Assembly: GCA_903884655.1 (NCBI GenBank) | Contig: CAISFO010000035.1 | Location: 1-64,000 of the forward strand | Source of the DNA: an uncultured Holophagaceae bacterium | GTDB lineage: Bacteria > Acidobacteriota > Holophagae > Holophagales > Holophagaceae | Direction of reading: 5' to 3' | Length of the DNA stretch: 64,000 nt | Part shown: in pieces, positions 50,461-64,000 of the stretch | How positions within the stretch are numbered: position 1 is the first letter of the stretch | Layout of the letters: every line of letters starts with the position of its first letter | Translations under genes and position numbers: made by a program | The notes under the pieces: generated by a model | Told to the model about the DNA's origin: nothing | The model's input: the letters and a program-made list of their open reading frames with translations, nothing else | The model's database searches: none

Positions 50461-51930
50461 TCACATCCCGTATTCTTTCCAGCGCCGTGCTACCCGGTCG
50501 AGAATCTCCGCAGGAAAGACCAGATCCCGCGGCCACTCGCGCTGGTAGCCATCCCAGGGCCGGTTCTTCCTCGTGGCGTCGATACCCACCTTGCTGCCAA
50601 AGGCGAAGCGGTCACTGGCGTGGTCCAGCACGTCCAGGGGTCCCTCGGTGAAGAGCATGTCCCGGCGTGGATCCACATTGCTGGTCAGCCGGAAGAGCAC
50701 CTCGTTCATGTCATGGGGATCGATGTCCTCATCGACCACCACGATGCCCTTGGTGAACATGATCTGGCCCGTGCCCCAGATGGCGTTCATGACCTTCTGG
50801 GCATGGCCGGGATACTCCTTGCGCATGCTCAGGATCACCAGATTGTGGAAGGCCCCGGCCGCGGGCAGGTGCATGTCGCGAACCTCAGGCAGAACCATGC
50901 GCAGGAGAGGCAGGAAAATCCGTTCGGTGGCAAGGCCCAGGTAGGCGTCCTCCTGGGGTGGGCGGCCCACGATGGTGGCGGGGAACACAGGATTCCACCG
51001 CATGGTGATGGCATCCACATGCAACACGGGGTAGTCGTCCGCCAGGGAGTAGTAGCCGGTGTGATCGCCGAAGGGGCCCTCCCGGCGCGACTCACCGGGA
51101 ATCACGTGCCCCTCGATGACGATTTCGCTGTCGGCGGGCACTTCCAGATCATTGGTCACGCAGGGCACCATCTCGATCCCTTCGCCGCGCAGGAAGCCAG
51201 TGAACATCACTTCGCTGAGGAAGGGTGGAAGGGGCGCGGTGGCCGCATACGTGAGGGCCGGATCCCCGCCAAAGCTCACCGCCACGGGCATGCGCTCGCC
51301 GAGGTCATACCCATGGCGGTTCCGGGCTCCGTCGTGGTGCAGCTGGGTATGGAACCCGAGGGTCCGGTCATCGAAGACCTGGAGCCGGTAGAGTCCCATG
51401 TTGCGATGGCCCGTCAGCTTGTTCCGGGTGTGGCTCATCCCCAGGGTGATGAAGGGTCCGCCGTCCTCGGGCCAGGTGGTGAGCACGGGCAAGTCGAAGA
51501 GCTTCACCTGGTCGCCCCGTAGCACGATCTCCTGGCAGATGCCCTTGCGAACGGTCTTCGGCATCCAGGTGCCCACCTCGGCCAGGGCAGGCAGCTTGGC
51601 CAGTTTTTCGAAAAACCCAGTACCGGGCCTGGGCATGGCCTCCTTCACCAGCCTCTCGATCCGGTCGGCGATGGCATCGAGGCCCCGCGGTTCCTGGTCC
51701 ACCCCCAGGGCCATTTCCATGCGCTTCAGGCTGCCGAAGACATTCATGGCCACCGGCAGGGCTTTTCCGGCGGGCCTCTTGAATAGGAGGGCCTTCCCAC
51801 CCCCAGGTTCCTTGGACACCCGGTCTGCCACCGCTCCCATCTCCAGGAAGGGGTCGACTTCCGGGTTGATGCTGGCCAGCTCGCCCGCGGCTTCGAGCTG
51901 TTTCAGGAAGGTCTGGAAGTCGCGGCCCAT
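50461..51930 (-). CDS. UbiD-family (prenylated-FMN) decarboxylase
   Basis: A 489-residue decarboxylase of the UbiD fold. The YRLQVFDDRTLGFHTQLHHDGARN block and later FVPCVTNDLEVPADSEIVIEG-type region with EGPFGDHTGYYS carry the conserved Arg and Glu residues that hold prenylated FMN and act in catalysis. In quinone-producing bacteria such enzymes remove a carboxyl group from ubiquinone or menaquinone precursors (UbiD or the futalosine-pathway menaquinone enzyme). No ubiX or other mqn gene is adjacent, so the substrate is not settled. GGAG precedes the ATG. It converges with the outer-membrane protein gene and is divergent from rplU. Confidence 0.88.
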   Translation of the reverse strand: MGRDFQTFLKQLEAAGELASINPEVDPFLEMGAVADRVSKEPGGGKALLFKRPAGKALPVAMNVFGSLKRMEMALGVDQEPRGLDAIADRIERLVKEAMPRPGTGFFEKLAKLPALAEVGTWMPKTVRKGICQEIVLRGDQVKLFDLPVLTTWPEDGGPFITLGMSHTRNKLTGHRNMGLYRLQVFDDRTLGFHTQLHHDGARNRHGYDLGERMPVAVSFGGDPALTYAATAPLPPFLSEVMFTGFLRGEGIEMVPCVTNDLEVPADSEIVIEGHVIPGESRREGPFGDHTGYYSLADDYPVLHVDAITMRWNPVFPATIVGRPPQEDAYLGLATERIFLPLLRMVLPEVRDMHLPAAGAFHNLVILSMRKEYPGHAQKVMNAIWGTGQIMFTKGIVVVDEDIDPHDMNEVLFRLTSNVDPRRDMLFTEGPLDVLDHASDRFAFGSKVGIDATRKNRPWDGYQREWPRDLVFPAEILDRVARRWKEYGM

Positions 51931-56343: not shown

Positions 56344-57108
56344 TTAATCCGTCACCCGCCCGATCAGCCTCAACAAGCCATCCAGGATGGTGAGGGGATG
56401 GGGCGGGCAGCCTGGGATGTAGAGATCCACGGGCAGCACGCTGGCGGCCCCCCCGCGTTGCTCCTCCTGGCGAAAGAAGGGGCCGCCTTGGATGGCGCAG
56501 GCCCCGACGGCGATGACGATCTTCGGGTGGGGCACCGCATCGTAGGTCTTGCGAAGAGCCAGTTCCATGTTGCGGGTCACCGGCCCGGTGACGAGGAGAC
56601 CATCCGCATGGCGCGGCGAGGCCACGTACTGGATCCCGAACCGGCCCAGGTCCCAGGAGAGGGTGCCGAGCACGTTCACATCCACTTCGCAGCCATTGCA
56701 ACCCCCGGCGCTCACCACTCGCAGTTTCAGGGAGCGTCCCAGGATCCGCTGGAGCTCGGCTCCCATGGCCTGCGCCCGCCGGTAGTCCTCTCCCGGCGTG
56801 ACCGTCAGGGCCTCGCGTGAACAGGCAGCCAGACGGTGATCCTGGGTGTATTCGATGGCCCCTTCCGGGCAGGCTTCCAGGCAATCCGGACAGAAGAGGC
56901 ATCGGCCCAGGTCCACCTGGGGGCCCTTCGAACCGATCCGGATGGCTTCGGTGGGGCAGACCTCGGCGCAGACGTGGCACCCCTCGGGGCACTTGTCCGC
57001 CAGGATCCTGGGCAGCCCCCGGAAGCGCTCGGGCAGGCCGGGCACTTCCTTGGGATAGGGCAGGGTCCGATGACCCTGGCGCCAGCGGGACAGCAGGATG
57101 TGCATCAT
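56344..57108 (-). CDS. hydrogenase-like small subunit fused to a two-cluster ferredoxin domain
   Basis: A 254-residue cytoplasmic subunit. Residues about 36-85 form a 2x[4Fe-4S] ferredoxin (Cys40, 44, 47, 51 and Cys70, 73, 76, 80), equivalent to HycF/HyfH. Residues about 130-254 form the NuoB/HycG-type domain, with GCNGCEVDVN (Cys137, Cys140), GACAIQGG (Cys204) and IPGCPPHP (Cys234) that bind the proximal [4Fe-4S] cluster. The electron path is therefore intact although the partner large subunit lacks NiFe ligands. The ATG overlaps the large-subunit stop. It is the last gene of the cluster. Confidence 0.88.
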   Translation of the reverse strand: MMHILLSRWRQGHRTLPYPKEVPGLPERFRGLPRILADKCPEGCHVCAEVCPTEAIRIGSKGPQVDLGRCLFCPDCLEACPEGAIEYTQDHRLAACSREALTVTPGEDYRRAQAMGAELQRILGRSLKLRVVSAGGCNGCEVDVNVLGTLSWDLGRFGIQYVASPRHADGLLVTGPVTRNMELALRKTYDAVPHPKIVIAVGACAIQGGPFFRQEEQRGGAASVLPVDLYIPGCPPHPLTILDGLLRLIGRVTD

Positions 57109-58622
57109 AGGTCATGCCCGCAGTAGGAGAGGTTGAAGCTCTTGTTGCAGAGCGGGAAATCGGAGATCTGCTCGCCGCGCAGCGCCAGGGCCAGGCCGAA
57201 CCAGTTGTGGAAGGACGGATCCACGATCTTGTAGCGGGAGAACCGTCCCTGGCCATCCGTGAGGGCCAGGTGCAGCACCTCGCCCCGCCACCCTTCGGTC
57301 AGGGACACGCACAGGCTGTCTGTGGCCAGGGGCGGAAGCGGGCCGGCGGGCGGGTCCTGTTCACACCGGGAGAGGTCAGCCAGGGCCAGCGAGAGGTGCT
57401 TCTGGCTTTCGGCCAGTTCCAGCCAGCGCACCCAGGCCCGGGACTGGACGTTCCCGCTTTCCGCGAGGGAGGAGGGCACAGGTTGCTGCCGGTAGGGACC
57501 GTAGGGATGGTCCTTGCGGACATCGAGATCCACCCCGCAGGCCCGGGCGGGGACGCCGACCATGCCAAGCTCCCGGACCTGGGCTGCTGCGAGGTGACCT
57601 GCGGCTTCAAACCGGAGCATCACCGATGAGGCTCCCCACAGCAGGTCGATCGCATCCCGAGAGTCAGCCCAGGCCTGGTCCAGGCGGGGGAGCAGGCGCT
57701 GGGCCATCGCGGGATCCAGGTCATGGCGCAGGCCGCCGGGCTTCAGCCAGTCGCGGCCCAGGCGGCTGCCGCACACTTCTGCGCTGAGGTTCAGCCAGTC
57801 CCCCCGGATGCGGCCGCAGAAGGAAGCGGTGGGCAGGAAACCCGCATCTCCCGAAAGGGCTCCAAGATCCCCCACGTGGTTGGCCGCACGTTCCAGCTCC
57901 AGGGCCACGCCCCGCACCCGATCCGTCCTGGTCGGCACCTCCACGCCAGCCAGGGATTCCACCAGCCTGCAATAGGCCCAGGCATGGGCGATGCTGCTGT
58001 CTCCCGAGACCGTCTCGGATTGTTTGAGACTCAAGGCATGGGGACCTCCCTGCAGGGCCCTTTCGAGGCCCCGGTGCTGGAATCCCAGGGCGACTTCAAG
58101 GTGGAAGACCGTCTCCCCGTGACACTGGAACCGGAAGTGCCCGGGTTCGATGACCCCTGCATGCACCGGTCCCACGGCGACTTCATGCACTTCGTCGCCA
58201 CTCACCTGGAAGAAGTTCGTGACGCCAGGCGGGGAATCCACCTGCCGACCCCAGGGACTGGGCTGATCCGACCAAGGCTGATGGAAGCGGACGGGCTTGA
58301 ACCAGGGATGGCCCTCAGGAATGATCCCGTACTGCTCAGCTATTTCTCGTTCAAAGAGATGGGCCTGCGGGCAGTACGGCGTCAGGGAGGGATATCTCGA
58401 ACCGTCCAGCCGCGTCCTGGCGACCCGCAAGCGCTGCTCCGCATCCTCGGCCAGCACCGCGAAGAGTCGCAGGTCCCCGTCCGCGCAGAGACAGGCGAGT
58501 CGGGCCCCGGATCGGGCGCCCTCGAGGATGGCCTCCTGGAAGGCGGGCAGGGACAGCTCCGGGACCTCGGCCAAGGGGAGCGATTCTCCATTCCGGATGA
58601 TCCGCATGGACTTGTTATTCAT
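57105..58622 (-). CDS. NuoC/NuoD-type (hydrogenase large-subunit-like) protein lacking NiFe ligands
   Basis: A 505-residue fusion. Residues 1 to about 115 resemble NuoC (PYCPQAHLFEREIAEQYGI). The rest is the NuoD/HycE-type large subunit, with VHEVAVGPVHAGVIEPGHFRF fully conserved. In NiFe enzymes this is followed by an RxCGxC motif; here the segment reads ETVSGDSSIAHAWAYC (Ser206-Ser209), so both Cys are Ser. The C-terminal CxxC pair is also missing; only Cys492 and Cys501 are present in FPLCNKSFNLSYCGHDL. The protein should therefore lack a NiFe centre, as in Ehr complexes. The ATG at 58622 overlaps the HyfF-like stop by 8 bases. Confidence 0.87.
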   Translation of the reverse strand: MNNKSMRIIRNGESLPLAEVPELSLPAFQEAILEGARSGARLACLCADGDLRLFAVLAEDAEQRLRVARTRLDGSRYPSLTPYCPQAHLFEREIAEQYGIIPEGHPWFKPVRFHQPWSDQPSPWGRQVDSPPGVTNFFQVSGDEVHEVAVGPVHAGVIEPGHFRFQCHGETVFHLEVALGFQHRGLERALQGGPHALSLKQSETVSGDSSIAHAWAYCRLVESLAGVEVPTRTDRVRGVALELERAANHVGDLGALSGDAGFLPTASFCGRIRGDWLNLSAEVCGSRLGRDWLKPGGLRHDLDPAMAQRLLPRLDQAWADSRDAIDLLWGASSVMLRFEAAGHLAAAQVRELGMVGVPARACGVDLDVRKDHPYGPYRQQPVPSSLAESGNVQSRAWVRWLELAESQKHLSLALADLSRCEQDPPAGPLPPLATDSLCVSLTEGWRGEVLHLALTDGQGRFSRYKIVDPSFHNWFGLALALRGEQISDFPLCNKSFNLSYCGHDL

Positions 58623-60096
58623 GTTGGACCTCGACCGGGGGAACCAGGTGAACCTGACGCGGGTGGGCCTTGCCATCCACGGTGGCGACCGCATGCTCCA
58701 GCAGGGTCTGCATGGGCTTCGGCAGCCACACGCCCAGGAGCCCTGCCAGACAGAGCGCCACAATCAAGGGGGCGGTGGTGGCCACGGTATCCGAATAGTG
58801 CGTTCTCACCCGCTGGTGACTGGGCGTGCCGAACACCACCTTGAGCACGGTTTCACTCATGGCGATGAAGATGCCCGCCAGCAGCACCAGGAATGTGGTC
58901 CCCGCCCAGGCATGACCAGTGGTGAAGGCCCCGGCGGCGATGTTGAACTCGCTGATGAAGGGAGCGAAGGGCGGCAGACCGGTGATGGCCAGGAAGCCGA
59001 TGAGGAAGAGCCATCCCGAGACGGGGGTGCGTCGGATCGCCCCCGTCACGTGGGGAAGGGTCTTGCTGGCATAGCTTCGATGGATGTTGCCCGCGGAAAG
59101 GAAGAGAACGCTCTTCACCAGCGCGTTGGCCGCCAGGTGAAAGAGGGCGAACCGCGCCGCCATGCCTCCGATCCCGATGCCAAAGACCAGGATGCCCATG
59201 TGCTCCACGCTGGAATAGGCAAGCATCCGCTTGAAATCCATCTGACGGACCATGAACACCATGGCCCAGGCCATGGAGAACACGCCAAAGCCCACGAGCA
59301 ACTCCTGGGCGAACTTGCCCTCCCCGGCTGCCACCACGATGCCGTAGATCCGAAGCAGGGCCAGGAAAGCGCAGCTGGTGACGCCACCCGCCAGCAAGGC
59401 GCCGACGATGCCCGGTGTTTCCCCGTAGGCATCGGGCTTCCAGGTATGCAGCGGTGCCAAACCCATCTTGGTGCCGTACCCGACCAGGCTGAGCACGAAG
59501 GCAGCCCGCAGCCAGGGCCGGGAAAGCAGGTCCGCGTTCAGCATCAACCGGGTGTACTGGAGCGGCTCCTCCAGGCCCCCGAAATGGGCAGCATAAGCCA
59601 GGAAGAGGGTGCCGAGCAGGGCCAGGGCAATGCCCACGGACCCGATGAGCAGGTACTTCCAGGTGGCCTCGAGCGAGCGGCGGTTGCGGTTGAAGTAGAT
59701 CAGGGGGGCGGTCACCAGTGTGGTGGTTTCCATGGCCACCCAGGCGACACCGGGATGCCGCGCCTGGGCGAGCAGCGAAGCCAGCCCCAGAAACGACAGC
59801 AGACTGACACAGAAGATCCGGTTGTCCCGGTCCGCCCGCAGGGCGAGATAGGACGGGGCGTAGAAGGCGCAAATGCAGAACAGCACACTGACGACCAGCA
59901 GCACCCAGGCGCCCAAGGCATCGAGCCCCAGCCAGGCATTGATCGGCAGGGTTCCCCAATGGCGCAGCGCCACCAGGAGCACCGCGAGGTGCAAGGTGCC
60001 TGCGACTGGCAGCAACCGGGATCGAAGGTCCGGAGAGGCCACCAGGTAGGCTGCCATGGCCACCAGCAGGGGGAACAGGATCAGGAAATAGGCCAT
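58615..60096 (-). CDS. HyfF-like proton-channel (NuoN/NuoM-type) subunit
   Basis: A 493-residue membrane protein with about fourteen helices, of the Mrp/NuoN-type antiporter-like family. The VAWVAMETTTLVTAPLIYFNRN block, the pore-lining YGTKMGLAPLHTWKPDAYGETP with a conserved Lys, and FMVRQMDFKRMLAYSSVEHMG with a Lys are the charged positions expected for ion translocation. It lies between HyfE-like and large-subunit genes. It overlaps the large-subunit gene by 8 bases and starts 3 bases after the HyfE-like stop. Confidence 0.9.
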   Translation of the reverse strand: MAYFLILFPLLVAMAAYLVASPDLRSRLLPVAGTLHLAVLLVALRHWGTLPINAWLGLDALGAWVLLVVSVLFCICAFYAPSYLALRADRDNRIFCVSLLSFLGLASLLAQARHPGVAWVAMETTTLVTAPLIYFNRNRRSLEATWKYLLIGSVGIALALLGTLFLAYAAHFGGLEEPLQYTRLMLNADLLSRPWLRAAFVLSLVGYGTKMGLAPLHTWKPDAYGETPGIVGALLAGGVTSCAFLALLRIYGIVVAAGEGKFAQELLVGFGVFSMAWAMVFMVRQMDFKRMLAYSSVEHMGILVFGIGIGGMAARFALFHLAANALVKSVLFLSAGNIHRSYASKTLPHVTGAIRRTPVSGWLFLIGFLAITGLPPFAPFISEFNIAAGAFTTGHAWAGTTFLVLLAGIFIAMSETVLKVVFGTPSHQRVRTHYSDTVATTAPLIVALCLAGLLGVWLPKPMQTLLEHAVATVDGKAHPRQVHLVPPVEVQHE

Positions 60097-60099
60097 GAG

Positions 60100-60735
60100 T
60101 CAGTCCTTCAACTCGGCCAGGTGCCGGGTGTCGGTGGAATCGAAAGCATTCCGGATGTGATTGATCACGATGCCCATCACGAACACTCCGACGAACAGGT
60201 CCAGCAGGATCCCAGTCTCCACGAGCAGGGGCATCTCCTCCACGAGCAGCAGGCCGAAGAGGTAGATGCCGTTCTCCAGGACGAGGTAGCCCACCACCTG
60301 GGTGAGGGCCTTCCGCCGGGAGACCAGCACGAGGAATCCCGTGAAGAGCGTCGCGAGCGCGGCAGGCACCAGCAGCACCACCGGCGTCCCCGCCTTGAGA
60401 GGGAGCATGTGGGCCAGGATCAGGCTCAGGCCGGTGCCCAGCGCGCACAGCATGAGGGAGACCGTGTAGCCGATGTAGGGATCCACTTCCCGCTGGATGT
60501 GCACCTCCCGGATCGCCCGGCGAAGGAGGAACGGGATGAGCCAGCCCTTCACCACGAGGGCCGCTAGGACCACCAGGAGGATGTGGAAGTATTTCCCCAG
60601 TCCCATCGCCAGTGGAATCAGCCCCAGCAGGACTCCCTGGACCACGACAATCTGGATGGCCTTGTTCACGCGGCTGGTGGCCACCAGCATGAAGTTGCTG
60701 ATGAGGGTCAAAGCAATGAGGAAATCCGGCGACAT
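60100..60735 (-). CDS. HyfE-like membrane subunit
   Basis: A 211-residue membrane protein with about seven helices, in the NuoK-related HyfE family of hydrogenase-4-type complexes. The GWLIPFLLRRAIREVHIQREVDPYIGY block and the ENGIYLFGLLLVEEMPLLVETGILLDLFVGVFVMGIVI block, with its buried glutamates, are typical. It probably works with the HyfF-like channel in ion pumping. It sits 9 bases after the NuoH-type gene. Confidence 0.87.
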   Translation of the reverse strand: MSPDFLIALTLISNFMLVATSRVNKAIQIVVVQGVLLGLIPLAMGLGKYFHILLVVLAALVVKGWLIPFLLRRAIREVHIQREVDPYIGYTVSLMLCALGTGLSLILAHMLPLKAGTPVVLLVPAALATLFTGFLVLVSRRKALTQVVGYLVLENGIYLFGLLLVEEMPLLVETGILLDLFVGVFVMGIVINHIRNAFDSTDTRHLAELKD

Positions 60736-60744
60736 GAGAACCCC

Positions 60745-61671
60745 CTAGACCAGCAGCAGCAGAAAGGCGAAGGCCGAGGCCAGAATTCCAGCGATCAGGA
60801 ACTGAGGGACCTTGGTCATCCTGAACCGCGCAGTCATGCTCTCCACCGCACCCACCGCCAGGGCGAGGACACCCAGCCCCGCGTAGAAGACGAGCCAGTT
60901 CTGCCAGGCATGCGTCGTGCGCGGGAGCAGCGGATCCATGAGCATGGCGCCAAGCACCAGAAGCTTGAGGCTCGCGCCATACAGCACCAGCGCGAGCGGC
61001 CGGCCGGAGTGATCGAGCACCATGACTTCATGGATCATGGTGAGTTCCAGGTGGGTGTTGGGATCGTCCACGGGAATGCGGGCGTTCTCCGCCAGGAACA
61101 CGATGGCCCAGCCCACGAGCACCAGGATCAGAGGCCCGGCAATGCGCCCTGATCCCACTCCGGGGCCCAGGAGCATGGTGGACAGGGAGAGGCTGGAGGA
61201 GGCCTTGGCCAGGGCCGCGAACCCCAGGAACAGGGCAGGTTCAGCCAGGGCCGAGAAGGTGACTTCCCGGGCCGCGCCCATGCCTTCGAAGCTCGACCCG
61301 GTGTCGAGGGCGGACAGGACGGTGAGGAACCGCGCCAGCCCGAACAGGTAGGCGAACAGGATCACGTCCCCTTCGAAGGGTAGCGGCGTGCCGGTATGCC
61401 CGAACGGCACGAGCAGACCCGCCACCAGGCCGGCGGCGACGGTGCCGATGGGACCCGCCAGGAACACCCAGGTGGTCGTCCGGCTGAAGAGCGCCCGCTT
61501 GTGGGACAGCTTGGCCAGATCGTAATAGAGCTGCAGGACGGGCGGACCACTCCGCCCCGCCAGGAGGGCCTTCACCTTGTTGATGAGCCCAGGCAGCAGG
61601 GGGGGGAGCAGCAGGAGCGTCAGCAGGTGGACGGCCCATTGGATTGACGTGGGAATCAGCGACTGGGACAT
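60745..61671 (-). CDS. NuoH/HycD-type membrane subunit
   Basis: A 308-residue membrane protein with about eight helices, equivalent to NuoH, HycD and HyfC. Family blocks are the GPPVLQLYYDLAKLSHK segment, FGLARFLTVLSALDTGSSFEGMGAARE, and ENARIPVDDPNTHLELTMIHEVM, which forms the quinone-chamber-like loop in complex I. It connects the peripheral large and small subunits to the antiporter-like subunits. It follows the HyfB-like gene with a one-base gap. Confidence 0.92.
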   Translation of the reverse strand: MSQSLIPTSIQWAVHLLTLLLLPPLLPGLINKVKALLAGRSGPPVLQLYYDLAKLSHKRALFSRTTTWVFLAGPIGTVAAGLVAGLLVPFGHTGTPLPFEGDVILFAYLFGLARFLTVLSALDTGSSFEGMGAAREVTFSALAEPALFLGFAALAKASSSLSLSTMLLGPGVGSGRIAGPLILVLVGWAIVFLAENARIPVDDPNTHLELTMIHEVMVLDHSGRPLALVLYGASLKLLVLGAMLMDPLLPRTTHAWQNWLVFYAGLGVLALAVGAVESMTARFRMTKVPQFLIAGILASAFAFLLLLV

Positions 61672-61672
61672 C

Positions 61673-63613
61673 TCAGGCCACCATCCAGAGCAGGAGCGCG
61701 AGCAGGGTCAACAGGACATAGAGCAGGTAGAGGTGGACCTGGCCCCCCTGGAAAAACCTCAGGAAAGCGGCGCCTGTCGCAACCACCCGGAACACGGGAT
61801 CGGCGATGCGCTCCAGGACGGGGTCCGGCACATGGCTGCCGTAGGCCTGAGTCGAAGGAAAGGTTCCCGCCACCTCGCCGCCGGAGGACCTGGGCCAGAG
61901 CAGCCAGCGCATGCCCCCGACCAGACCATCCGCAAAGGAAGAGGCGCTGTACTGCATGCGGGGGTTCGCTGCGGCATAGCCACAATCCCAGGTGGGGAGC
62001 GGGCCCCCAGGTGCCGCCGGTCGCAACCAACGCCACAGCAACCAGGCCGAACCCAGCAGCAGGAAAGCGAGGATGCTGAGGCTGGGCAGACTGCTGAGCA
62101 GGGACAGGGGCGGAAGGTCCGTACTCGCTCCCAGGGAGCCCACAACCCGATCCAGGGCTGGCGCAATCAGCATGGGCGCCAGACCAATGACCGCGCAGGA
62201 GGTGGCCAGGATACCCATGGGGATGAGCATGCTGCGGGGCGCTTCGTGGGCCGCCTCGGCTGCCCGGGTGCGGGGCGTCCCCTGGAAGACCGCACCATAG
62301 GCCTTGGCGAAGCAGGCCAGGGCCAGGGCGCCGATGATGGCCAGGGCCGTCAGGACAACCAGGGACCAGGGCCACGGGTAGAACCCCAGGGCCCGGAAGG
62401 ACCCGACATAGAGGAACCATTCGCTCACGAACCCGTTGAGCGGGGGCAGACCACAGATGGCCCAGGATCCCGCCAGGAAGGCCGCCGAGGTCCAGGGCAT
62501 TCGCTGTCCCAGACCCCCCATCTGCTCGAGGTTCCTTGTCCCCAGGGCATGGACCACAGAACCCGCCGACAGGAACAGCAGGCCCTTGAAAAGGCTGTGG
62601 TTGACGACATGCAGCAGGGCACCGGCGAAGCCGAGCACCTGGATCACGGGATGCCCCGTGCTCTTCCCGATGGTGCCCAGCCCCAGGCCCAGCAGGATGA
62701 TGCCGATGTTCTCGATGGAGTGGTAGGCCAGCAGGCGCTTGAGGTCGTGCTGGCCGAGGGCGAAGGCCACACCCAGGATCCCTGACAACGCACCGAGCAC
62801 CATGAGGGTCGCGCCCCACCAGAAAGGTGGATCCGGGATCCAGGACAGCAGGCGCACCAGTCCCAGGATCCCCATCTTGATGAGCACCCCGGACATCACG
62901 GAGGAGACATGGCTGGGCGCGGCCGCATGGGTCGAAGGAAGCCAGAGGTGAAGCGGCATGACACCGGCTTTCAATCCGAATCCGAACAGACAGAGCCAGA
63001 AGAGGGCGGTGCCCTGGCTGGTGCCCGCGAAGGCCCTGGGAAGGGTCGAGAAGGCCCAGTGGCCCGAAACCGAGGCGAGGATGGCGAAGGCGCCGAACAG
63101 AGCCAGGGTTCCGGTGTGGGTGCACACCAGGTAGATCCAGCCGGCGCGTTGGACCTCAGGCAAACGATCCTCCGTCATCACCAGGAGGAAGGCCGCGATG
63201 GCCATCCCTTCCCAGCCCAGGAGGAAGGGCAGCGCATGGGTGGAGACCACCAGCAAGGCCAGGAAGGCCGCCAGCAATCCGAGCACCAGCCTCAGCCTTC
63301 GGGCATTCTCCTGATGATCGTCCCAGTAGCCGATGCCATAGATCGCCGCGCAGGCGGGCAGCAGGAACACGGGCAGCGAGAACAAGGCCGCGATGGGATC
63401 GAGGGTGAGCAGGCCGGCCGAAGCCAAGGGCGCGGGGGGCAGCGTCAGGACGGCCACTGGGCCGCCCGCCAGCACCCGGACCGCTGCGGCCATTCCGAGC
63501 AAGGCTCCCAGACCCATCAAGACAGCGGCCACCTCCCCGCCCCAGCGCCTCAGGAATACCCCAGGCAACCCTGAGATCAGCACGAACACCATGGCAAGGA
63601 GGTAGAGCCTCAT
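61673..63613 (-). CDS. HyfB/NuoL-type proton-channel subunit
   Basis: A 646-residue membrane protein with about fifteen or sixteen helices. The first part is NuoL/HyfB-like: GWEGMAIAAFLLV, GFGLKAGVMPLHLWLPSTHAAAPSHVSSVMSG, with the conserved Lys in LKAG, and DLKRLLAYHSIENIG. Late in the chain a TWDCGY block and a final GGQVHLYLLYVLLTLLALLLWM helix are shared with HyfB/HycC. I start at the ATG at 63613 (GGGAGG 9 bases upstream); the frame to 63982 runs in a different phase from its homologue. It overlaps the preceding partial gene (ATGA). Confidence 0.9.
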   Translation of the reverse strand: MRLYLLAMVFVLISGLPGVFLRRWGGEVAAVLMGLGALLGMAAAVRVLAGGPVAVLTLPPAPLASAGLLTLDPIAALFSLPVFLLPACAAIYGIGYWDDHQENARRLRLVLGLLAAFLALLVVSTHALPFLLGWEGMAIAAFLLVMTEDRLPEVQRAGWIYLVCTHTGTLALFGAFAILASVSGHWAFSTLPRAFAGTSQGTALFWLCLFGFGLKAGVMPLHLWLPSTHAAAPSHVSSVMSGVLIKMGILGLVRLLSWIPDPPFWWGATLMVLGALSGILGVAFALGQHDLKRLLAYHSIENIGIILLGLGLGTIGKSTGHPVIQVLGFAGALLHVVNHSLFKGLLFLSAGSVVHALGTRNLEQMGGLGQRMPWTSAAFLAGSWAICGLPPLNGFVSEWFLYVGSFRALGFYPWPWSLVVLTALAIIGALALACFAKAYGAVFQGTPRTRAAEAAHEAPRSMLIPMGILATSCAVIGLAPMLIAPALDRVVGSLGASTDLPPLSLLSSLPSLSILAFLLLGSAWLLWRWLRPAAPGGPLPTWDCGYAAANPRMQYSASSFADGLVGGMRWLLWPRSSGGEVAGTFPSTQAYGSHVPDPVLERIADPVFRVVATGAAFLRFFQGGQVHLYLLYVLLTLLALLLWMVA

Positions 63614-64000
63614 CCCAGCAGCCTCCCCCGCAAGAACATCCAGAGGAACGCTCCCAGCAGGGCCAACAGCACATAGAGGATATAGAGCGACAAGTAGCCG
63701 GGCTGGAGGCTCCGGAAGCGGAGCAAACGCTGAGCCATCCGCTCCAGCCTGGACCCAAGGAATAGCTCTCCGACCAGGTCCCGGATCTCGGAGCGGAAGG
63801 CGACCGGTTTGGGAAAGTTCGCTGTGATCCGACGGACCTTGTACTTGAGGCCCGGCAACAGCGGTGCCCAGGCCTCCGAAAAGGAGGAGCCGGTGTACTC
63901 GGCCCGACGGACCGGCAGCGCATAGCCACAATCCCAGGTTGGAGGTGACAAGGCTTCCGGCGAGGGCGTCGAGCGTCGCCACCAGAGGTACGCCGCGAAC
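63610..64000 (-). CDS. HyfB/NuoL-type subunit, C-terminal part (cut by window edge)
   Basis: An open frame continues from the right window edge (no stop to 64000) and ends at 63610. The visible 129 residues resemble the C-terminal tail of the next gene: a TWDCGY block, then a soluble stretch, then the final PGYLSLYILYVLLALLGAFLW helix. The rest of a NuoL-like channel protein must lie beyond the edge. It is a tandem paralogue of the 61673-63613 gene, so the complex has at least three antiporter-like subunits with the HyfF-like one. It is coupled to the next gene by ATGA. Confidence 0.82.
   Translation of the reverse strand, partial: FAAYLWWRRSTPSPEALSPPTWDCGYALPVRRAEYTGSSFSEAWAPLLPGLKYKVRRITANFPKPVAFRSEIRDLVGELFLGSRLERMAQRLLRFRSLQPGYLSLYILYVLLALLGAFLWMFLRGRLLG

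Follow-up and report, generated by a model that had tools for sequence, protein, structure and literature searches.

A Geothrix-like Ehr complex lacking the NiFe ligands, with clues to what Ehr cannot be and to its possible working

The 64,000-nucleotide stretch analysed here (hereafter, the window) holds most of an operon for an Ehr (Ech/energy-converting-hydrogenase-related) complex which, judged by its sequences, is homologous to that of Geobacteraceae and belongs to the hydrogenase-4/FHL branch of the complex I superfamily. On balance, we favor reading it as an ion pump driven by low-potential electrons, with a substrate other than H2 in the former NiFe pocket. Broadly, Ehr complexes lack NiFe ligands and are of unknown function (PMC10284858, PMC7304191, PMC6349859), and are defined by a group-4-like large subunit without the Ni/Fe-coordinating Cys (PMC10284858, PMC6349859); the family has already been named in Geobacter, comammox Nitrospira, Margulisbacteria and CPR. 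The sequence-only reading had proposed a “candidate novel redox-driven ion pump” of Ehr type whose substrates are not established; the Ehr reading stands and the statement on substrates agrees with the literature (PMC10284858, PMC6349859), but the novelty was overstated, as the family carries a name and over 580 relatives are present in GTDB contigs. What is new is a Geothrix-like example of this known kind, with clues to what Ehr cannot be and to its possible working. Such complexes occur widely, and the analyses below rule out a hydrogenase function in defined lineages and narrow the Ehr site to a specific set of residues.

Operon layout and place in the Ehr family

The genes form a tightly packed minus-strand run, ordered A1, A2, B, C, D, L, S from the right, with overlaps of a few bases at A1/A2, D/L and L/S (PMC7894505 and PMC13194489 use the names EhrA-1, EhrA-2, EhrB, EhrC, EhrL and EhrS). 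The first gene, ehrA1 (HyfB/NuoL-type antiporter subunit, 654 aa; NF005086 hydrogenase 4 subunit B, 474 bits), shows its C-terminal part at 63610-64000 (-) of the window and is complete at 63610-65574 on the contig (C35, 82,402 bases), where an unrelated 860-aa gene precedes it; the operon therefore spans 56344-65574 (-). It is followed by ehrA2 (61673-63613, -; second HyfB/NuoL-type antiporter subunit, 646 aa; hydrogenase 4 subunit B, 537 bits), whose ATG sits in an ATGA overlap with ehrA1, ehrB (60745-61671, -; HyfC/HycD/NuoH-type membrane anchor, 308 aa; PF00146, 102 bits), ehrC (60100-60735, -; HyfE-type, 211 aa; NF008556, 84 bits), ehrD (58615-60096, -; HyfF-type third antiporter subunit, 493 aa; NF005044, 297 bits), ehrL (57105-58622, -; large subunit with NuoC-like and NuoD/HyfG-like parts, 505 aa, without the Ni-Fe ligands) and ehrS (56344-57108, -; small subunit, 254 aa, with a HyfH-like 2x[4Fe-4S] domain fused to a HyfI/NuoB-like domain). 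By NCBIfam and Pfam, the subunit matches (hydrogenase 4 subunit B twice, HyfF, HyfE, NuoH/NADHdh, NuoC plus NuoD domains, and a ferredoxin plus NuoB fusion) are far beyond chance. Among E. coli proteins, A1 and A2 correspond to HyfB, D to HyfF, and the N and C termini of EhrS to HycF/HyfH and HyfI/HycG, respectively; in BLASTP, EhrB reached 121 bits with HycD, 94 bits with HyfC and 15 bits with the NuoH of the host. No HyfA/HycB-type linker subunit was found in the operon, and no RNA elements in the window at gathering thresholds.

The seven co-directional, overlapping genes of a complex I/hydrogenase-4-like complex thus lie where the sequence-only reading had located them (57105-64000, with the small subunit at 56344-57108), although the operon runs on to 65574; its two NuoL-type subunits are also right, but HyfF is a third antiporter-type subunit, which makes three pump modules in all. 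A second intact large subunit beyond the right edge, which would have told against that reading, is absent: the operon starts at 65574, after the unrelated gene.

This 860-aa protein (L006:9702-12284), without any Pfam match, is encoded on the same strand 127 bp before ehrA1, and related ORFs occupy the same place in other Geothrix loci. Elsewhere in the window, a UbiD-type decarboxylase-like ORF (50461-51930, -; 489 aa) was named by eye from its translation, in an ordinary neighborhood read as rplU, rpmA, obg, nadD, rsfS and Glu/Leu dehydrogenase.

At least 582 Ehr relatives were found in GTDB contigs, the best 80 of them belonging to Planctomycetota, Verrucomicrobiota, Geobacteraceae and other deltaproteobacteria, Elusimicrobiota, Omnitrophota, Spirochaetota, Zixibacteria and more; the core order A-B-C-D-L-S is nearly constant in about 90 loci of many phyla. 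The nearest loci, with large subunits 70-80% identical, point to a Holophagaceae/Geothrix origin of the window. In the large-subunit tree, the window falls in a Geothrix clade inside a 24-row Ehr clade (100/100) that includes the Geobacteraceae Ehr, with HycE, HyfG, MbhL and L032 (a Cys-complete group-4 large subunit from another genome of the same phylum) outside, the placement of the long branches L033 and MbhL being unsure. The Ehr-type identity and intactness claimed earlier are borne out: the complex shows the ligand loss, the operon set (EhrA NuoL-like, NuoH-like, HyfE-like, HyfF-like, L and S) and a large subunit that groups with known Ehr rather than with hydrogenases.

Several loci depart from this pattern. 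A Verrucomicrobia contig carries, directly after a first Ehr operon, a second Cys-less complex (L106:12335-19907; 37% identical; SGDSS / NKSFNLSYSGND). Another Cys-less large-subunit type (L034:6318-13309 and L035:5831-12819; FAGSTA / LSVAENDR), with the order B-C-D-L-S-A, forms a separate tree clade (100/100) in which the PR pair is kept and Trp445 and Asp208 are missing. Two Ehr large subunits (L041:8680-10188 and L049:10001-11524) have Cys at the first former Ni-ligand site (CGD[ST]) and have lost the other three. Finally, in a Planctomycetaceae contig (L065:3821-12368), weak antiporter matches and what appears to be a DabA-type gene come after Ehr L and S, in place of the usual membrane genes.

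The former NiFe site, the clusters and the pump subunits

Alignment to HycE, HyfG and L032 confirmed that the large subunit lacks both NiFe Cys pairs, all four Cys being replaced in EhrL. The former CGxC loop reads ETVSGDS (residues 203-209; 57996-58016, -), with S206 and S209 in place of Cys and a new, invariant Asp208; the C-terminal DFPLCNKSFNLSYCGHDL (57108-57161, -) has S499-Y-C-G502 for CxxC, S499 and G502 standing at the Cys sites. At Trp445-Arg446 (57285-57290, -) the active-site Arg is kept and the preceding Pro of hydrogenases has become Trp. Glu159 (58146-58148, -), present in 89 of 89 Ehr rows and also in HycE/HyfG, is the counterpart of Glu21 of MbhL, which has a proton-delivery role and is listed with the residues surrounding the NiFe site (PMC11228991). 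Over 89 Ehr sequences, Glu21 corresponds to E159 (89/89), Gly69 to G207 (89), Ile70 to D208 (89), His75 to H213 (89), Pro319 to W445 (88) and Arg320 to R446 (89), the Cys68 site is A/S/C in 79/8/2 and the Cys71 site T/S/A/V in 75/10/3/1; the Cys374 site is S and the Cys377 site G in every Ehr row extending there. Ehr large subunits share 84 invariant columns, new ones including D208, S499 and G502. D208, W445, S499 and G502 were not part of the search patterns by which the sequences were collected; E159 and residues 467-474 were, so that the invariance of these is biased. As read from these alignments, the former NiFe pocket is rebuilt and not decayed, with GD[ST], W445, S499 and G502 beside the kept E159, H213 and R446.

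A first hand alignment had offered C492 (DFPLCNKS) as a surviving Ni ligand, which was rejected since it aligns with Val in L032; neither C492 nor C501 is at a ligand position. The RxCGxC and DPCxxC ligands of group 4 [NiFe] hydrogenases are missing, and neither motif, which the sequence-only reading had named as evidence against itself, was found elsewhere in EhrL. EhrL stops at the residue that pairs with Arg537 of HycE, as in 90 of 90 rows with the motif, HycE having a 32-residue tail beyond; this end can be taken only as consistent with a lack of maturation, since the Cys-complete L032 is tail-less too. The best solved relative, by sequence (E 1e-40) and by fold, is HycE of the E. coli FHL structure 7z0s (7z0s_E); the AlphaFold2 model of EhrL (pLDDT 82.8, pTM 0.87) has low confidence in the pocket loops 149-164 and 483-499.

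All 12 Fe-S Cys of EhrS are present, as had been claimed. The two [4Fe-4S] motifs (C40-C51 and C70-C80; 56869-56991, -) and the proximal-cluster ligands (C137xxC140, C204 and C234; 56407-56700, -) are kept in most of 85 relatives. The proximal cluster has CxxC spacing in hydrogenases and adjacent CC in complex I (PMC7684303); EhrS shows the hydrogenase type. Each of A1, A2 and D retains its Glu in TM5 and TM12 and its Lys in TM7 and TM10, a conservation that would fit redox-driven ion translocation; A1 and A2 also carry a C-terminal WDCGY loop, which would be the coupling loop by the three-loop description of PMC7684303.

EhrL scores above 840 bits in eight congeners (G006, G007, G008, G015, G017, G021, G024 and G025; completeness 96-99%, contamination no more than 2%), in all of which HypD is absent and no NiFe large subunit exceeds the Pfam cut-off. 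The dN/dS of L genes among HypD-less congeners is 0.12-0.33, i.e., EhrL is under purifying selection; since it is kept in this way without HypD or any Ni-Fe hydrogenase, the Ehr of these eight congeners cannot be a hydrogenase. HypD was likewise not found in 17 of the 50 Ehr genomes reached via GTDB loci (completeness not stated), including Geothrix paludis SG195. The window's own genome has HypD and one NiFe large subunit, the latter on another contig (C38).

Proposed working and competing readings

We infer the donor, substrate, direction and coupling as follows. A diffusible low-potential donor, probably reduced ferredoxin, would deliver electrons to the two [4Fe-4S] clusters in the HyfH-like domain of EhrS, from which they would pass through the hydrogenase-type proximal cluster to a substrate in the former NiFe pocket of EhrL. 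This substrate would not be H+/H2, and probably not a quinone bound in complex I style. Glu159 may supply protons, while Asp208, Ser/Thr209, His213, Trp445, Arg446 and Ser499 would shape the site, and the reaction would be coupled via EhrB/EhrC to ion movement in three antiporter-like channels (A1, A2 and D).

The gene neighborhood bears on the donor and on regulation. No redox partner gene (formate dehydrogenase, NuoEF, ferredoxin) recurs in 117 ORFs flanking Ehr operons, as tallied for the 25 commonest of 156 families; the lack of a conserved partner besides an EIIA regulator fits, and suggests, a diffusible donor. A gene with HTH_17 and PTS_EIIA_2 domains heads the operon, mostly on the same strand, in 42 of the 67 loci whose upstream flank reaches 0.9 kb or more. 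It was seen at L053:2187-2945 and in 43 other loci of many phyla (e.g., L067:1948-2697, L080:1505-2215); the EIIA His is visible in most of these proteins and lost in L073 and L119. No homologue was detected in 37 genomes of the window's genus, Geothrix (E 1e-8). The EIIA gene suggests that Ehr may be under PTS/energy-state control in most lineages; a narrow literature search found no link between Ehr and PTS-EIIA. A bolder version, which we hold as a tentative possibility, would set Ehr apart as an energy converter of its own kind: an ion pump driven by ferredoxin that needs neither H2 nor quinone and converts an unrecognised small polar substrate in the rebuilt NiFe pocket (GD[ST]/W/S signature), with a PTS-EIIA-linked transcription factor governing it in most lineages.

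The strongest competitor, to which we give about one chance in four, is a ferredoxin (or other donor):menaquinone oxidoreductase, a short complex I reducing quinone in the former NiFe cavity. The fold shared with NuoCD and the loss of NiFe ligands, which also marks complex I, agree with it; the host itself carries PF02621, a marker of the futalosine menaquinone pathway, so a quinone may serve in this host. However, the complex I quinone ligands (Nqo4 His38/Tyr87) are replaced at their positions in EhrL, both host NuoD proteins showing the complex I pattern as alignment controls, the proximal cluster of EhrS is CxxC and not CC, and the anchor subunit resembles HycD, not NuoH. Furthermore, 18 of the 50 Ehr-bearing genomes have neither PF02621 nor menD over cut-off, and in 16 of the 18 UbiD is missing as well; this is suggestive and not proof, since the genomes are mostly MAGs of unstated completeness judged by marker families. 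HypD is also missing in six of the Ehr genomes without quinone markers. MenD matches below cut-off were left uncounted because all control genomes give them, and PF01040 is too broad for judging quinone synthesis.

Less probable, at roughly one in ten, is a formate-driven complex of Ehr with formate dehydrogenase, as put forward for Riflemargulisbacteria/Saganbacteria (PMC6349859). In G. sulfurreducens, every Ehr subunit reached higher abundance in cells grown on formate than in those grown on hydrogen (PMC7894505), but formate dehydrogenase is not among the commonest neighboring families tallied above and the operon is without the linker subunit. A cryptic or decayed hydrogenase is very improbable: the catalytic ligands are gone and Ehr has been termed nonfunctional in the KN400 evolution paper (PMC13194489), yet purifying selection, the 84 invariant columns with their newly fixed residues and gene sets intact across many phyla speak against decay. 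A hydrogenase with an unusual metal site is the least credible, its kept Glu159, His213 and Arg446 being set against the missing Cys ligand set and the retention of Ehr in genomes without HypD. Geothrix isolates such as G. paludis SG195 offer natural test strains, and a reaction shown to be independent of quinone and H2 would give the complex I superfamily one more type of coupling.

Comparison with known systems

The closest known system is the Ehr of Geobacteraceae (G. sulfurreducens GSU0739-0745), with the same kind of subunit set and no NiFe ligands; the large subunit of Geobacter argillaceus is 55% identical to that of the window and falls in the same clade (100/100). The gene arrangement differs: in Geobacter loci, the extra antiporter gene and the HTH-EIIA gene stand apart and are partly divergent, and the EIIA gene is absent in Geothrix. 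E. coli hydrogenase-4/FHL-1 (Hyf, Hyc) is alike in that HycE is the best structural match of EhrL and HyfB, C, E, F, G, H and I have counterparts; in contrast, Ehr is without CGxC/DPCxxC, HyfA/HycB, a maturation protease gene and the C-terminal tail, and has HyfH and HyfI fused. As to the maturation genes of group 4 [NiFe] hydrogenases, the host has HypD and the eight congeners do without. The sulfane sulfur reductase MBS of Pyrococcus is likewise an ion-pumping complex of group-4 descent without NiFe. In MBS, however, two of the four Cys remain, Glu21 is missing and the proximal cluster has three Cys (PMC7684303), none of which was found in the complex of the window, where Glu159 is kept, no NiFe Cys remains and the proximal cluster is CxxC. 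Respiratory complex I, for which the host has separate genes (C79, C27), shares the fold, the antiporter modules and the loss of NiFe ligands; Ehr differs in having no NADH module, no His38/Tyr87 in the large subunit and CxxC instead of CC, and its large and anchor subunits resemble those of hydrogenase, not of complex I.
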